Assembly (NCBI RefSeq): GCF_900119165.1
Contig: NZ_FPJG01000006.1
Location: 2,976,001-3,040,000 of the forward strand
From: Amycolatopsis australiensis
GTDB taxonomy: Bacteria > Actinomycetota > Actinomycetes > Mycobacteriales > Pseudonocardiaceae
DNA length: 64,000 bases
Reading direction: 5' to 3'
Part shown: positions 21,687 through 32,524 of the stretch, piece by piece
How the letters are laid out: each line of letters begins with the position of its first letter
How positions within the stretch are numbered: position 1 is the stretch's first letter
Program-made: the position numbers and the translations under genes
The notes under the pieces: generated by a model
The model's input: the letters and a program-made list of their open reading frames with translations, nothing else
Told to the model about the DNA's origin: nothing
The model's database searches: none

Positions 21687-21894
21687 AGGGGGAGGGATCC
21701 GGCGCGATCACTTGGGTACTTCTGGTAGCGCCCGAGGCTGTGACCCACACGATCCCCTGGCCGTAGGTGTGGACCTGAGGGTACTAAGTGGGATAGTGGC
21801 TTCCTGCTTCCGTCGCCAGGAACCAACGGCCGGTTACCTCACTCTGGCCCTGCCAGTGGTCCTGAGGCCAGGAGGTGCGTCCGCATCGGGACCA

Positions 21895-21920
21895 TATACA
21901 TCAACCGGGATTGATGTATA
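21895..21920. promoter_or_regulatory. ArsR-type operator overlapping the start codon
   Basis: TATACATCAA and TTGATGTATA form a perfect 10-bp inverted repeat with a six-base centre. The ATG of the ArsR-phosphatase fusion (21914) lies inside the right arm. This is the size and AT-rich form of ArsR/SmtB operators, and would place the transcript start at or very near the start codon. Confidence 0.8.
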
Positions 21921-22687
21921 TTCAGACGGTGGTCTTGCCCGAGGAACCGCCGGTGTTCGTGCGGCTGATGGCTGATCCGGTGCGTTGGCAGCTGGCACGT
22001 GCGCTGGCAGTCGGTGATCTGCGCGTCCGGGAGCTGGTAGCGGCGGTCGGGCACCCGCAGAACCTGGTGTCGTACCACCTGCGGCAGCTGCGGTCGGCCG
22101 GTTTGGTGACGGCTCGGCGCAGCAGCTTCGACGGCCGGGACAGCTACTACCACCTGGACCTCGCGCGATGCGCGGACGCATGGGCCGAAGCCGGAACCGC
22201 GCTGCACCCGGGGATCGGATCCCCGGCCGGGGCCGCCGAACCGCGCGCTGGCCGCGCGCGAGTACTGTTCCTCTGCACGGGCAACAGCGGCCGTTCCCCG
22301 CTGGCGGAGGCGTTGCTGCGGCACCGCACACGCGGTGCCGTCGAGGTGACCAGCGCCGGCAGCCACCCGAAACCCCTGCACCCCGACGCCGTGCGCGCGG
22401 CCGCCGAACGCGGGATCACCCTCGAGCACGAGCCGACGCACCTGGACACGCTGCGGCGACGGCGGTTCGACTGGGTGATCAGCCTGTGCGACAAGGTCCG
22501 CGAGGTCGTCCCCGCCTTTCCCGGGCGGCCGATGACGATCCACTGGAGCCTGCCCGACCCGGCACGGGAACCCGATCCCGGCGGCGACACCTTCGCCGCG
22601 TTCGCGCGCACCGCCGCCGAGCTGGACACCCGGATCCGGTTCCTTCCCTTCACCCTGACGACCGATGCGGAGGAGACCCGAACATGA
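21914..22687 (+). CDS. ArsR regulator fused to LMW phosphatase/arsenate-reductase domain
   Basis: A 257-residue fusion. Residues about 8-95 are an ArsR-type winged HTH (FVRLMADPVRWQLARALAVG, HPQNLVSYHLRQLRSAGLV, RSSFDGRDSYYHLDL). Residues about 116-250 are a low-molecular-weight phosphatase domain with the CX5R loop VLFLCTGNSGRSPLAEALL, FDWVISLCDKVREV and the acid loop WSLPDPA. Such domains include thioredoxin-type arsenate reductases. The metalloid-binding Cys pair common in ArsR is absent, so the phosphatase loop may be the sensing part. ATG 21914 lies in the operator; GTG 21929 is an alternative start. It overlaps the VOC gene. Confidence 0.88.
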   Translation: MYIQTVVLPEEPPVFVRLMADPVRWQLARALAVGDLRVRELVAAVGHPQNLVSYHLRQLRSAGLVTARRSSFDGRDSYYHLDLARCADAWAEAGTALHPGIGSPAGAAEPRAGRARVLFLCTGNSGRSPLAEALLRHRTRGAVEVTSAGSHPKPLHPDAVRAAAERGITLEHEPTHLDTLRRRRFDWVISLCDKVREVVPAFPGRPMTIHWSLPDPAREPDPGGDTFAAFARTAAELDTRIRFLPFTLTTDAEETRT

Positions 22688-25723: not shown

Positions 25724-26182
25724 GTGGACTTCGACCAAGCCGACGCCATCAATCAGGCCGTCCGCATGCTGAGCCTGCGCCACCGGGCCAGGACCGCCGA
25801 ACTGCTGGCCCCGCTCGGTCTGCACCCCGGCCAGGAGGCCCTCCTGCTCGAACTCGCCCGGTCCGGCCCCATGATCCAGGCCCAGCTCAGCGAGGCGCTC
25901 GGCGTCGAGCGGCCCAGCGTCACACTGATGGCCCGCAAGCTCGAAGCGGCCGGTCACATCCGCCGCAGCTGCGCCCCTGACGACCAGCGCGCCACCGTCG
26001 TCGAACTCACCGACCGCGGCCGAGCCCTGACCGACCAGGTCAAGCAGCTGTGGTGCGCCCTGGCGCAGCAGACCCTCGCCGGCCTGCCTGCTGAAACGGT
26101 GGCCGGGCTACCTGGCCTCCTCAAGACCCTGGCCGGCAACGTCGACACCCGGCGGCCCCACCATCGCCGCGACGCCGGATGA
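25724..26182 (+). CDS. MarR-family regulator of the wrbA unit
   Basis: A 152-residue MarR protein: HTH region GPMIQAQLSEALGVERPSVT and LMARKLEAAGHIRRSCAPD, wing DDQRATVVELTDRGRALTDQ. Two Cys residues lie in the wing and C-terminal helix (RRSCAPDD and KQLWCALAQQ), so thiol sensing of quinones is possible, as in YodB/MhqR-type regulators. GTG 25724 follows AAGGGAG by five bases. The double palindrome upstream fits two dimers and autorepression. Confidence 0.92.
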   Translation: MDFDQADAINQAVRMLSLRHRARTAELLAPLGLHPGQEALLLELARSGPMIQAQLSEALGVERPSVTLMARKLEAAGHIRRSCAPDDQRATVVELTDRGRALTDQVKQLWCALAQQTLAGLPAETVAGLPGLLKTLAGNVDTRRPHHRRDAG

Positions 26183-26358: not shown

Positions 26359-27342
26359 TCAGCTGCGGCTTTGCCTACACGACGGACTACCAGCGGAATC
26401 CCGACTGCGGGCGCCGCTGCTGCACGGCGCCGAGCGCTCGGGTGATGGGTCATGACCGGTCTGTATGGTGTCCGGCGTTATGGCCGGTGGGTCACCGTGC
26501 CTGGCTTGCTTCTCGGGTGTGCTGCTCTCCGTGTTCGGCTGCAGGGCGGCCAGGATGGCTTGCGGTGAGGTCAGCAGCTGCGGATGGTGGTCGAGCAGGA
26601 GTTGCTGTGCGGCGGTCAGCTGATGCACTGCAATGGTCCACTCGACCTTCACGATCAGGAGCGCGCCGACGCGGATCACCGCGTCTTTGGTCGTCTGCAG
26701 CGCTCCGAGGACCGGGCCAGATTCTGCATCATTGTCGCGGTGCCGGTGGCATCGCGGGCAAGAACGACGTGGGAGTCGATCGCGTGTGCGGCCGCAACCG
26801 CTGTCTCGCGAGCGAGATCGGACGCGGCGGCACGGACCATTGCACGCATGCGCCGGAACCACGAGCCGGTGATGGGATCGTCGCGGTCGATGATCTCTGC
26901 TCCGGCCGCGGTCACCAGGTCCTCCACCGCGGTTTGCACGTGGCGGTGGGCTGCCTGCGCGAGCAGCTCCGGCACAGCGGACTCCTGAGCCGACAACACC
27001 AGCGGTACGCCATTGTGGCGGACCTCGTGCGTTTCCCGGTAGATCTCGAGGTCCCCAACACGTAGTGGCGGCGACTCGGCGTTTCCGACCCGGCGTGAGA
27101 GGCTCGTCCTTGGTCGTCAGGAACAGTACGGGCGTCGACCAGCCGGATCCGCACGCAGTTCAGGGCGTCACTGGGCAGGAACCGGTTGAAACGACACAGT
27201 CATAGGAGGTAGTGGCGAGTAGGCTGTCGGCTTCTGGAAGGTCGTCTGCGAAGTCCACCGACATCCCGGCCTGACGCGGGGACGCGGTGATGGCCACGCG
27301 GAGATTGTCGTGGTCCTCGACGATCAGCACATGCACCGTCAA
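26359..27342 (-). pseudogene. Decayed OmpR-type response regulator joined to an unknown helical protein
   Basis: Starting at 27342 the minus strand encodes a receiver domain (VHVLIVEDHDNLRVAITA, GMSVDFADDLPEADSLLATT, YDCVV), then frame changes lead to PVLFLTTKDE and to the winged-helix start LRVGDLEIYRETHEVRHNG, with VPLVLSAQESAVPELLAQAA. From about 26945 the frame continues into an unrelated-looking helical stretch (VEDLVTAAGAEIIDRDDPIT, MRAMVRAAASDLARETAVAA), with another break near 26700 before VLGALQTTKDAVIRVGALL. At least four frame breaks show a dead gene, perhaps two genes joined by deletion. The remaining sequence between 26183 and 27700 has no intact gene. Confidence 0.55.
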
Positions 27343-28288: not shown

Positions 28289-29542
28289 ATGGCGACCGAG
28301 CGTGACGATCGGGAAGTCAACGAGTTCTACCTCCGCATGCTGGCGGCCGGCGACGGGAAGCCGGTTGCGATCGGGGCGCCTGCTGACGATCCCGTAGCGC
28401 GGGTCATCCAGCAGATCGTCGACGGAGTGCTGAGCTACGTCGACCTGGAGATGAGTGACCCTGCCGTCGCCGAGCTGATGCGTTCCGATCGGATAGCGGT
28501 CCGGACCATCCCGCCCGCGAGCATCCAGGCGTTGACGGTCTGGATCGAGCCCCGGCACGTCGTCGCGTTCAACCGTGGTCTTGGTTTGTTCTTGTACCGG
28601 CTTGCCCGCGCCTTCGCCGGAAACTACATAGTCCGTGGTCCCGGAGACCCGCCGGCGCCCCCGGAGAGCGATGCAATAAGCATTATCGCGACGCTGCTCG
28701 ACTGGATGGCGTCGCCTGTGCGGGCGCCGCTTCTCCAGGATTGGGAAGTGGGGCCGCGAGAGATCAAAACGGCGGAAAACTTCACCACAGCGGCTGAGCG
28801 CTTTGTGATGTGCCACGAGTTGGCTCACATCATGTACGGGCACCTCATCGCTGACAGTTCGGCCTTCACCACGGACTCGGTTTCGCTCGCCGATCTGGAC
28901 ACCAGGCCGCTGAGGCAAGAGACCGAGGCGGACGTGGCGGGGGCCGTGCTCGCCATCGACTCCATGCCGCACATCGGTATAGATCCACGTGCCGCCGCTC
29001 ATGGCATATATTTCTTCTTCTGGGCGTTGGATCTCGCCGAGCGAGTCGGGGCAGTGCTCACCGATGGTTCACATCTGGCGGCGGCGGAGCGTCTCGAAGT
29101 GTGCCGATTCGGGATTGGTCAGTGGTACGGTGAAGAATCTGCGACAACCTTGTTCAAACCGGTCGACGAGACAGGAGAGCTGCTGTCCCGTCTGGGAGAA
29201 GCGGCCTTCGAGCTCCAGCGCGGACGACGCTTCCTGGTCGCGTCGAGGATGGACGAGTTGTTCGCCAAGACCTCTTGGCCGGAGTGGCCGCAGCAAGAAC
29301 AGATGTCCGAGTTGCGGCGCGAAGTGATGGACATGATGCTGGAAGCACCCAGCGCGGTCGTCGACGCGCTGGCCGCAAACCTGCTCAACCACGGCGACTA
29401 TGCCGCATTGCTGAAATCCATGGCTTCGCCGGACGAACGCCAGTACAACGACCGGTGGCGGCGACACCAGATCGCCCACTTCCTCGCCCGGCACGCGCCG
29501 GAGCAGGTCCGAACGTGCTTGGGTGTGACGACATTCCCGTGA
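28289..29542 (+). CDS. HExxH zinc metallopeptidase-like protein, unknown family
   Basis: A 417-residue protein. The zincin motif CHELAHIMYGHL lies near residue 176 with both His and the Glu, and a likely third ligand is in RQETEADVAGAVLA near 212; this order resembles ImmA/IrrE- or M48-like cores. Upstream, IQALTVWIEPRHVVAFNRGL and FLYRLARAFAGNYIV may shape the active site; the C-terminal 150 residues are helical. No signal peptide or membrane segment was seen, so it should be cytosolic. ATG 28289 follows GGTGGGGG. It heads a three-gene run with the zinc-ribbon and membrane proteins. I know no named system with this set. Confidence 0.88.
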   Translation: MATERDDREVNEFYLRMLAAGDGKPVAIGAPADDPVARVIQQIVDGVLSYVDLEMSDPAVAELMRSDRIAVRTIPPASIQALTVWIEPRHVVAFNRGLGLFLYRLARAFAGNYIVRGPGDPPAPPESDAISIIATLLDWMASPVRAPLLQDWEVGPREIKTAENFTTAAERFVMCHELAHIMYGHLIADSSAFTTDSVSLADLDTRPLRQETEADVAGAVLAIDSMPHIGIDPRAAAHGIYFFFWALDLAERVGAVLTDGSHLAAAERLEVCRFGIGQWYGEESATTLFKPVDETGELLSRLGEAAFELQRGRRFLVASRMDELFAKTSWPEWPQQEQMSELRREVMDMMLEAPSAVVDALAANLLNHGDYAALLKSMASPDERQYNDRWRRHQIAHFLARHAPEQVRTCLGVTTFP

Positions 29543-29567
29543 CGATCGTTGACGGAGGCTCGCTGCT

Positions 29568-29963
29568 GTGGCAAAGCCGCTGAACTACACCGACGATGTG
29601 GATCCGTCGTGGGCGGGCCGGGCCATGGAGACGCTCGACGTGACGCCGGCGCCCAGCGCCGACGACCCCGTCGTACTCGAACTCAGCGGCCGATGCCCGC
29701 GATGCGACGAGAAGATGGAAGACTCGCTCTGGTTGATCACCATTCTGGGCGTCTCCGGGCTCAACCGGGAGGATGCCTTCAATGCAGCCGACGCGCTGCG
29801 GGAAGCCGGGATCCTGGCCCAGCCCTTGCTTCCTGCCGAGTTCACCGTCAGCTGCAAGTGCTCGACTCCGCACCCGGACCCGCTGGGACGCACGGACCTC
29901 AAGGGGTGCGGTGCGACTTGGAAGATGCGCTTCGAGGCTGTCGAGGACGATTCCGATGAGTGA
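29568..29963 (+). CDS. Zinc-ribbon-like small protein
   Basis: A 131-residue protein with four Cys in two knuckles: RCPRCDEKMEDSLW near residue 42 and VSCKCSTPHPDPLG with KGCGATWKM near 95-117. It is probably a structural zinc ribbon with an insert. The helical middle (LNREDAFNAADALREAGILA) has no recognisable domain. GTG 29568 follows GGAGG by eight bases, 25 bp after the peptidase gene; it overlaps the membrane-protein gene by eight bases. A role as substrate adaptor or sensor for the peptidase is inference from position only. Confidence 0.85.
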   Translation: MAKPLNYTDDVDPSWAGRAMETLDVTPAPSADDPVVLELSGRCPRCDEKMEDSLWLITILGVSGLNREDAFNAADALREAGILAQPLLPAEFTVSCKCSTPHPDPLGRTDLKGCGATWKMRFEAVEDDSDE

Positions 29964-30663
29964 TCGCGGCGATGCGCGACCGGCCGCCGGCAAGGCCCGC
30001 CGCGGGTCGGTGATCAAGGCAGTGCCGCCGCACGACGTCGTGCCCAACACCCGGGAGCTGCAGGAGCGCGCCAAGCTTGCCGACGAGGTGGCCGCGGCGC
30101 TGGGCAGAGTGCGGTCCACGGCGCAGAACTGGCGCACCGGAATGGCCGGGCTGATCACCCTTGTGACGGCGACCTTGCTTTTCAAGGGACGAAACAGCAT
30201 TTCCGACTACGTGAGCTGGGTGCGCTACTCGATCGGTGCTCTCACCGCACTGGCTCTCATCGCCGGAGTCGCCTCGCTGTGGTGGTTTCTCCTGGCTGCC
30301 TACGGCAGGCCGGAGGTGGTCAGTGCCCAGTCCGTGATCGATCAAGGCGGTGTGGCTGTCCGCGACGTCCTCCTCGCGCAGGCCGCCAGGAAGGACCTGA
30401 AGTTCGCTCAGCTTCTCGCCATTGTCAGCGCGGCGCTGCTCGCGGCGGCTCTGATCTTGTCCTGGTACGGGCCGGCCGAAACCAGCTCGCCCCCGGCGTT
30501 CGCGTCCGTGAAGGTTCGGCACCCGTCGGGCACGGAAGCGATCTGCGGCTCACTGGTCGCCCAGAACGGGACCACTACTGAACTGCGGGTGAAGGGTGAG
30601 CCGGACGCCCGTCGAATCCCGACCGCCGACCTGGTCTCGGTAGTGCTCGTATCCGCTTGCTGA
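29956..30663 (+). CDS. Membrane protein of the peptidase cassette
   Basis: A 235-residue membrane protein. A basic N-terminus and a helical segment (TRELQERAKLADEVAAALGR) are followed by three hydrophobic segments: MAGLITLVTATLLF, YSIGALTALALIAGVASLWW and LLAIVSAALLAAALILSWY. The last 60 residues (SVKVRHPSGTEAICGSLVAQ, TTTELRVKGEPDARRIPTAD) form a small beta-rich domain ending in VLVSAC. The ATG lies inside the end of the zinc-ribbon gene, so the two are coupled. It may be the membrane target or effector of the cassette. Confidence 0.85.
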   Translation: MSDRGDARPAAGKARRGSVIKAVPPHDVVPNTRELQERAKLADEVAAALGRVRSTAQNWRTGMAGLITLVTATLLFKGRNSISDYVSWVRYSIGALTALALIAGVASLWWFLLAAYGRPEVVSAQSVIDQGGVAVRDVLLAQAARKDLKFAQLLAIVSAALLAAALILSWYGPAETSSPPAFASVKVRHPSGTEAICGSLVAQNGTTTELRVKGEPDARRIPTADLVSVVLVSAC

Positions 30664-30972: not shown

Positions 30973-31738
30973 TCAAGGCCGGCCCGCTGCGGGGCGAAGC
31001 CGTGTTCGATGAGGTCGAAGGTTTCCTCCACGGCGGCCAGTGGCTGTGGGGTGTTGACCTGGAGGGGACATCGAGGCCGCGGCAGTGATGCCGGGGTTCC
31101 GGTTCGGTAGTCCCGGACCGCGGCCGCGCGCGGGCGGTGTCGATGGGATCGGCTGCGTCAGGTCGGCGTCGACGGTGAACATCCGGGCCTGGTCCGTGGT
31201 GAACCCGCAGACGGGTTCCCAGCCGATGCGGGAGACGCGCCGATGCGTGCGGCTCCACGGCGGAGCGTCGAACAGTTCGCCGTCGATGATCAGCGAGTAC
31301 GGGGCGTCCGGGTGGGGCCCAGCAGGGTCGACACCGGCCATGACCGTGGTGAACTGGGTGCAGTCGTTGACGTTGCCGCCGGTCAGCGCGACTGACAGAG
31401 GCCGCCCGTGGCCGTCGCGGGCCAGGTGGATCTTGGTGGTGAGTCCGCCCCGGGACCGGCCGATGGCATGATCACCTGGCTCGCCAGCGGCGTGCTGATG
31501 CGCCCGCACGATGCTGGAATCGACCGACACTCCCCGGTCGAGTTCGCCGATCGCTTCGGCCGGCACCTGCGCCTGTGCCACCAGCGCGGACAGGATGCCG
31601 GTGCGCGACCAACGCCACCTCTTCGCACCAGGCACCGGAAGCAACGGCTGGATAACCCGCCACTGCTCGTCGGTCAGCTCATGCTCACGCACCACGACCG
31701 AAGATCAAAACCCGCAGCAGCTTTGAGGACAGGCCCTA
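30973..31738 (-). mobile_element. IS5-family transposase relic
   Basis: The minus strand from 31695 encodes the start of an actinobacterial IS5 transposase: VREHELTDEQWRVIQPLLP, then an in-frame loss of about 60 residues (GAKRWRWSRTGILSALVAQA), then the catalytic-core part GELDRGVSVDSSIVRAHQHA, RSRGGLTTKIHLARDGHGRP and LSVALTGGNVNDCTQF. After PYSLIIDGELFD the sequence is scrambled. The outer end carries GGGCCTGTCCTCAAAG (minus strand, 31721-31736), typical of this group's terminal repeat; the other end was not found. It borders the metallopeptidase cassette. Confidence 0.8.
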
Positions 31739-32026: not shown

Positions 32027-32524
32027 TCAGGGCAGACGGGCGTGTTCGGCTCGGGTGGCAGCGATCCGCTCACGCGCGAGTGTGCGGGCCCGCTTGGTGT
32101 CGTCGCCGGTGAGTCGGGCGAGGATCGTTGCGAGCGGCCTGATCTGGCCCCAGCCGCCCCAGTGACCTTCGGGGATCTCGGTGGGGAATACCCAGATCCG
32201 GCCGGCGTCGCGCGGCCAGGCGCCGTTCTCCGCGTCGAGGATCGCCTCGGTGACCTCGGCGATGACTCTCGCACGCTTCTGCTCGTCGAGCTGGCCCTCG
32301 GGGACGGACGGGACGACCTTGTAACGAGGTGCGTCCGCGGGTTCTCCGCCGACGTAGATGCCGGCCGGTCGGTGCAGCCAGAGCCAGGAGACGGAACGGC
32401 TCACTGGGTCGGCGGGGTCGAATCCCTCGTTGCGGACGAGGATCTCGGTGATGCGGTTCACCAGCGCAGCCTCGGCGCCCGGCTGAAGCGCGCCGTCGGG
32501 AATGTACACGTCGAGCATAGGCAT
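32027..32524 (-). CDS. Tautomerase-superfamily protein
   Basis: A 165-residue protein starting MPMLDVYIPDGALQPGAEAA, so after Met removal Pro1 would be the catalytic base as in 4-oxalocrotonate tautomerases. Length and a second repeat-like part (YKVVPSVPEGQLDEQKRARV) suggest two fused beta-alpha-beta units, as in cis-CaaD/MSAD-like members. WVFPTEIPEGHWGGWGQI is a notable Trp/Gly-rich segment. It is divergent from the HxlR regulator at 32618 with two inverted repeats in between and is presumably its target. Confidence 0.88.
   Translation of the reverse strand: MPMLDVYIPDGALQPGAEAALVNRITEILVRNEGFDPADPVSRSVSWLWLHRPAGIYVGGEPADAPRYKVVPSVPEGQLDEQKRARVIAEVTEAILDAENGAWPRDAGRIWVFPTEIPEGHWGGWGQIRPLATILARLTGDDTKRARTLARERIAATRAEHARLP

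Follow-up and report, generated by a model that had tools for sequence, protein, structure and literature searches.

What a metallopeptidase, a zinc-ribbon protein and a membrane protein might do together is the question raised by three adjoining genes of Amycolatopsis australiensis, found in a stretch of 64,000 nucleotides that was analysed as a whole and is called the window here. The three intact ORFs form one cassette at 28289-30663, all on the + strand: a peptidase gene (28289-29542, 417 aa), a zinc-ribbon gene with a GTG start (29568-29963, 131 aa) and a membrane-protein gene (29956-30663, 235 aa), with 25 bp between the peptidase stop and the zinc-ribbon gene and an 8 bp overlap between the latter and the membrane-protein gene, just as a preliminary description of the DNA had it. 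Database matches, the window's own included, number 26 for the peptidase, 12 for the zinc-ribbon protein and 19 for the membrane protein, and because all three frames are open and each product has relatives, chance ORFs are excluded. Pfam, NCBIfam and PADLOC gave no match above curated cut-off for any of the three window proteins, and PDB sequence searches with them returned nothing useful. We read the cassette, with a probability of about one half, as one branch, the one with a metallopeptidase, of a modular conflict system coupled to proteases, because a constant pair of zinc-ribbon and membrane proteins occurs with exchangeable proteases.

The cassette, its surroundings and its three products

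On the 5' side of the cassette, and not part of it, lies a response-regulator fragment (27160-27342, − strand) that scores 24.5 bits against PF00072 (cut-off 30.2) over the first 47 of 111 positions, and adjoining the cassette, again not part of it, is a shortened IS4/5-type transposase gene (30973-31695, − strand; PF01609 at 39.1 bits and part of PF13340). A MarR gene (25724-26182) and a tautomerase-like gene (32027-32524) appear whole, and so the decay that the preliminary description saw all around the cassette holds close by and fails farther out. The G+C content of the cassette is 65.2%, below the 70.9% of the window, which suggests import. That the cassette is intact may reflect selection, as the preliminary description proposed, or recent arrival. 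As a test for an empty site the tautomerase-like flanking gene was sought in the 16 other genomes of the genus; three of them gave weak matches only (best 36% identity), and no insertion site emerged. Among the neighbours examined no recognised defence genes were seen near the window cassette or near the trio of Bradyrhizobium sp. LTSP849 described below. Elsewhere in the window, at 21875-22687, a low-molecular-weight phosphatase domain is fused to an ArsR-type HTH.

The peptidase, a cytosolic protein, is an M48-like gluzincin and probably a distant relative of the phage-exclusion protease Lit. It contains CHELAHIMYGHL and EADVAGA, and its structure model (pLDDT 86.2, pTM 0.86) comprises an M48-like gluzincin domain at about residues 28-290, which VIA-align brings to M48 peptidases, and a C-terminal helical domain at about residues 314-417. 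Within the HELAH zinc motif (residues 176-180; 28814-28828, + strand) H176, E177 and H180 are invariant in 22 sequences, as are E211, A214 and D215 of an E-x-x-A-D motif (residues 211-215; 28919-28933, + strand), which is presumed, from its role in M48, to provide the third zinc ligand and its neighbour. The gluzincin fold with HExxH and third-ligand Glu is thus found in the window peptidase. Against Pfam PF01435 (M48) the window protein scores 14.7 bits, under the gathering score of 20.3, and the same family matches 22 of 22 relatives at E <=1 (best 3.9e-9). The profile of the peptidase aligns to Lit by hhalign with probability 82 and E 1.1e-5 over 121 columns that span HExxH, E-EAD and HP-A-ER. 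Precomputed annotation puts the label PF10463.16 on 25 of the 26 peptidase matches, with which a local run of PF10463.15 disagrees, as it finds 5 of 22 relatives at E <=1 (best 0.003) and leaves the window protein unmatched. With the peptidase model Foldseek gave 0 matches to PDB or to viral structures at E 0.001, and the weaker viral rows included unnamed phage proteins (probability 0.98-1.00) and an IrrE protein; no relatives of the peptidase were found in phage records or IMG/VR. The PADLOC capP model reaches the window peptidase at 17.4 bits and E 5.8e-4 only. The partner of CapP in CapP-CapH is an HTH protein, whereas the partner genes in the window encode a zinc ribbon and a membrane protein and have no Pfam HTH match above cut-off.

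The nearest characterised relatives found are therefore M48 peptidases and Lit, with no housekeeping assignment, and a match to a well-characterised housekeeping family, which the preliminary description had named as telling against its reading, did not emerge. Lit of E. coli e14 (peptidase family U49) is likewise an HExxH zinc peptidase, but it has 297 aa, and its K-12 copy is without an adjoining zinc-ribbon and membrane pair. From M48 peptidases such as BepA and HtpX the window peptidase differs by its extra C-terminal helical domain and in that no membrane or secretion segment is seen in it. Genistein induces a protein of Bradyrhizobium japonicum for which a U49 peptidase is predicted, according to the relevant passages of one report (PMC9069715).

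The zinc-ribbon protein has five cysteines (43, 46, 96, 98, 114) and a conserved His102 in the alignment, in place of the four cysteines first reported, and its signature CPRC ... CKC-x3-H ... GCGA lies at 29694-29915 (+ strand). Y7, CPRC, C96-x-C98, H102 and GCGA are invariant in 16 aligned zinc-ribbon proteins from zincin- and CHAT-linked loci, and further copies differ at the Arg and at the last Ala (CPKC, CPAC, CPNC). The membrane protein model, of moderate confidence (pLDDT 74.7, pTM 0.53), begins with a long helix that continues as TM1, a shape shared with SLATT proteins, followed by TM2 and TM3, so that the three segments first described reappear as three long hydrophobic helices, and then a five-strand SH3/Sm-like barrel at the C-terminus (about residues 177-235, from the model and structural matches). 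C197 and C235 are invariant in 18 sequences. If the basic N-terminus lies inside, the barrel would lie outside. The barrel is optional, because it is missing in a CHAT-linked genus (at least 13 loci).

No family of Pfam, NCBIfam or PADLOC reaches its cut-off with the zinc-ribbon protein or the membrane protein, and Pfam searches of their relatives brought up none that was prominent; PADLOC 2.0.0 has no model that matches either window protein at E 1, nor one that matches the zinc ribbon-membrane fusions P0058 and P0060, described below, at E 0.001. Pfam EACC1 matches neither the window membrane protein nor its relatives, the SLATT families leave the window protein unmatched with SLATT_4 matching a single one of the 18 relatives, at E 0.32, and no gasdermin stands among the 50 structural matches listed for this moderate-confidence model.

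The zincin trio in other genomes

Outside the window, Rhizobium sp. ASV8 (L002) and Bradyrhizobium sp. LTSP849 (L003) carry the trio with its gene order unchanged, the L003 peptidase being frameshifted in that assembly, and Nocardia sp. NRRL S-836 (L004) has a relic of it. Diverged and rearranged trios are seen on the Rhodococcus opacus plasmid pLPS8 (L035; order zinc ribbon, membrane protein, peptidase, with the membrane gene over two frames), at L036 (zinc ribbon and membrane protein with a convergent peptidase, whose homology hhalign puts at probability 94 and E 1.4e-7) and at L042 (weak zinc-ribbon and membrane matches, peptidase convergent). The three genes thus co-occur elsewhere, the lack of which had been named beforehand as grounds for abandoning the idea of a system. 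Contigs of equal size recur among the protein matches (peptidase with membrane protein 6167 and 2842; zinc ribbon with membrane protein 2342, 8738 and 1826), which suggests that these are the same contigs. The Rhizobium trio is directly preceded, at L002:5787-8405, by genes for HipA-type and HTH proteins and by an IS240-type transposase.

Zincin trios are rare. A single peptidase sequence found no match in genome contigs, and the peptidase profile found three loci there. Searching with the peptidase returned one of 296 genomes of the phylum, the window's own; the profile matched 28 of 249 genomes of the family, among which only the window's own match was strong. The 27 non-self matches, judged from 16 stretches examined, were not counted as the system, being mostly short weak matches to the HExxH region and often in housekeeping surroundings. 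Among 341 genomes of the Bradyrhizobium family the membrane profile matched one, the seed itself, and among 319 of the Bradyrhizobium phylum it matched 3, only the seed strongly. As to residence in defence or mobile islands, which the preliminary description had also raised, plasmids, IS elements and the HipA/HTH pair are found, whereas the surroundings of the window and LTSP849 cassettes are ordinary where examined.

One membrane module beside unrelated protease folds

Further loci were chosen by searching with the membrane protein only, a procedure that is blind to the protease. At the level of the order 23 of 397 genomes matched, and 20 of the 22 non-self ones were taken in addition to G395, which was already in the set, with G1086 (<25 bits) left out; plasmids gave 4 records, all used; at the level of the class 17 of 374 genomes matched and 13 of the 16 non-self ones were taken, as 14 stretches, in addition to G909, which was also already in the set, with G1365 and G1036 (<25 bits) left out. 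L096-L098 were dropped for a membrane match <25 bits. A membrane match of at least 80 bits defines 30 loci (L079-L095, L099-L102, L125-L133), and a zinc-ribbon gene is present in 30 of 30, weak in some (19 bits at L092, 24 bits at L130).

Beside this conserved pair there is usually one protease gene, and its class varies: M48/Lit-like zincin, CHAT, caspase, trypsin or subtilisin-like. CHAT neighbours account for 21 of the 30 loci (L079-L091, L093, L094, L100, L125-L128, L131), a caspase with iHD-CE and HSP90-associated parts for 3 (L129, L132, L133), an EAD1-trypsin for 2 (L092 and L130, mutually 38% identical over 345 columns) and a subtilisin-like protease for 2 nearly identical plasmid loci (L101, L102), the last assignment resting on the record name S8/S53 and a PDB intracellular serine protease at E 0.005, with no Pfam match at E 0.01. 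The remaining two are L099, where an IS5 copy cuts a CHAT-like gene (Pfam CHAT 21.3 bits, cut-off 24), and L095, where the contig ends. CHAT was confirmed by Pfam at L080, L081, L083, L084, L088, L090 and L100 and assigned at the other CHAT loci through a profile built from six of these, which matched one gene per locus, always that adjoining the pair. Where whole, the CHAT and caspase partners have about 1240-2180 aa, and in those examined the catalytic motifs of these families are present. Partner order may follow the window, protease then zinc ribbon then membrane protein on one strand, as at L080, L100 and L125-L128 (CHAT) and at L129, L132 and L133 (caspase), and in L092, L101, L102 and L130 the zinc ribbon and the membrane protein are a single polypeptide. 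Several copies of the system lie on plasmids or near IS elements.

These counts are to be read with the sampling in mind: the CHAT loci are not independent, because 14 of the 21 come from one genus (g4), 13 of those with the same convergent layout; three more (L125-L127) come from another genus, and the 21 fall into six groups (g4, g296, a Streptomyces plasmid, g329, g314, g340). In contrast to many defence genes, the g4 form stays at one position in the chromosome, and several of its loci adjoin a gene that we take, by its sequence, to be pyruvate kinase. Strict coupling is weakened by L134, L135 and L137 (membrane match 40-71 bits), since scans detected no zinc-ribbon gene or protease there. 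A fusion of a zincin with a dCTP-deaminase-like domain is found at L136/L138 (<80 bits), which are two contigs from a single genome, and at L136:439-2463 this HEVAH (HExxH) protein is convergent with a relative of the membrane protein.

At L130:982-5188 an EAD1-ThsA_Macro gene (PADLOC ThsA, E 1.4e-61), a candidate TIR-like ORF, an EAD1-trypsin gene and the zinc ribbon-membrane fusion adjoin one another. The TIR-like ORF (L130:2605-3096) is a candidate by a motif and had no PDB match. The EAD1-ThsA_Macro gene was considered as the partner at this locus and rejected, as the EAD1-trypsin gene was found in between.

That one membrane module stands beside unrelated protease folds is established by the loci themselves. 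Exchange of the protease has likely happened repeatedly: on a tree of 31 membrane-protein sequences the 6 partner classes require 8 label changes, where 5 is the minimum possible (the L130 row carries the label 'macro', although a trypsin gene adjoins its pair), the clade of the fused form (99/98) contains subtilisin-like and trypsin partners, and the window zincin clade (99/99) lies near the CHAT rows L094 and L100. The tree alone falls short of proof, because several rows are long and the well-supported branches alone force only one change each for CHAT and zincin.

Proposed function, and what is known of similar systems

A conflict role is suggested by the identity of the partners and by the patchy distribution. 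The kinds of partner match those of bacterial conflict systems, with EAD1, CHAT or caspase peptidases and at L130 an EAD1-ThsA_Macro gene as well, and the likeness to conflict systems that the preliminary description drew is strengthened because the same pair adjoins CHAT, caspase, EAD1-trypsin and subtilisin-like proteases; its interpretation as a whole is partly supported. On the best reading the cassette is a conflict module, probably for anti-phage suicide, whose protease either switches the membrane pair or is switched by it. The zinc-ribbon and membrane proteins would form one membrane unit with the ribbon on the cytosolic side, where it may dock or restrain the partner protease. A signal of infection or damage would lead to activation of the protease, which would cut or free the pair, and the pair would then damage the membrane such that the cell is stopped or killed. 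Such a device would work on the principle of bacterial gasdermins and protease-gated nucleases, but with a membrane protein unrelated to them.

Several known systems share parts of this layout. Gasdermin systems, in the parts of one account that deal with them, encode a membrane protein beside a protease, often caspase-like (PMC9079055), whereas the membrane partner in the window has three helices and a small barrel. HamMAB, Avs and canu nuclease pairs, as outlined in sections of PMC12799240, similarly have one partner that recurs with trypsin-like or caspase proteases, but there it is an MBL-type nuclease and here a membrane pair. The nearest layout, though with the opposite role assignment, is EACC1-caspase of actinobacteria, where portions of PMC7159879 place a constant membrane component beside a caspase-family gene; in the present system the protease class itself varies, and EACC1 lacks a zinc ribbon and has a single TM helix, in contrast to the three long hydrophobic helices of the modelled window protein. 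SLATT proteins, covered in the same portions, are likewise small helical membrane proteins of conflict systems, from which the window protein differs by its three TM helices and barrel. The open-access PMC literature, searched with few sets of terms, yielded no account of the trio or of the pair. The theme of an immune protease with a dedicated partner is already known; this membrane module, with its branch that uses a metallopeptidase, is apparently new to the literature.

The roles could be the other way round, with the barrel outside and the ribbon inside sensing an event in the envelope or the cytosol and activating the protease, which would arrest the cell by cutting a host protein in the manner of Lit. 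This is the main rival and the less likely reading, although the alignment of the peptidase profile to Lit fits it, as do the action of Lit on EF-Tu (in the relevant passages of PMC3014915), the reading of the constant membrane part of EACC1-caspase as a sensor (likewise in portions of PMC7159879) and the fusion at L136, which implies that another effector can be joined to the enzyme. A membrane effector gated by the protease is preferred, in a judgement that is itself evenly poised, because the large CHAT and caspase partners carry other parts able to sense, and because the known analogues, in those sections of PMC9079055 and PMC12799240, pair a constant effector with a releasing protease; the absence of the barrel from at least 13 loci also speaks against a sensor. 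Regulated proteolysis in envelope stress or development, with the protease turning over the pair in normal physiology, is a rather improbable account. It agrees with the constant chromosomal position that the CHAT form keeps in one genus, with hosts that are mostly actinomycetes and with the want of a defence gene adjoining the window cassette, and it is opposed by how rarely the zincin trio occurs (1 of 296 genomes of the phylum and one strong match in 249 of the family, both the window's own), by copies on plasmids and by partners of conflict type (EAD1-trypsin, caspase-iHD-CE, ThsA_Macro). That the three genes merely drifted together is very improbable indeed: whole zincin trios are confined to few sequenced genomes, the Nocardia copy being a relic and the LTSP849 peptidase frameshifted, but the linkage recurs in two phyla in varied orders and orientations, and the fusions of zinc ribbon and membrane protein contradict chance.

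Under the preferred reading of a protease-gated membrane effector one may go further, tentatively and with more doubt than confidence, and propose an unrecognised class of protease-gated membrane killers, built on a module unrelated to gasdermins that has recruited at least five protease families, of which the Lit-like metallopeptidase branch is the one seen here. If so, a constant membrane module would join the short list of targets or controllers of bacterial immune proteases, and a Lit-like metallopeptidase would occupy the same slot as caspases. The targets of many actinomycete CHAT, caspase and EAD1-trypsin genes would also become testable, the candidate partner being the adjoining gene.

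More distant peptidases were met in other company. At L037:9678-11761, L038:8459-10521 and L040:6158-9334 distant HExxH peptidases adjoin a protein of 329-355 aa with N-terminal CxxC pairs, which at L037 and L038 has TPR repeats by Pfam, and these loci possibly represent a second zinc-ribbon-partnered peptidase system. A distant M48-like peptidase (30 bits) lies amid recombinase genes on a Paraburkholderia plasmid (L104:5707-7005), and on a Streptomyces plasmid (L103:5776-8205) an ISAs1 transposase gene overlaps the end of another distant peptidase.
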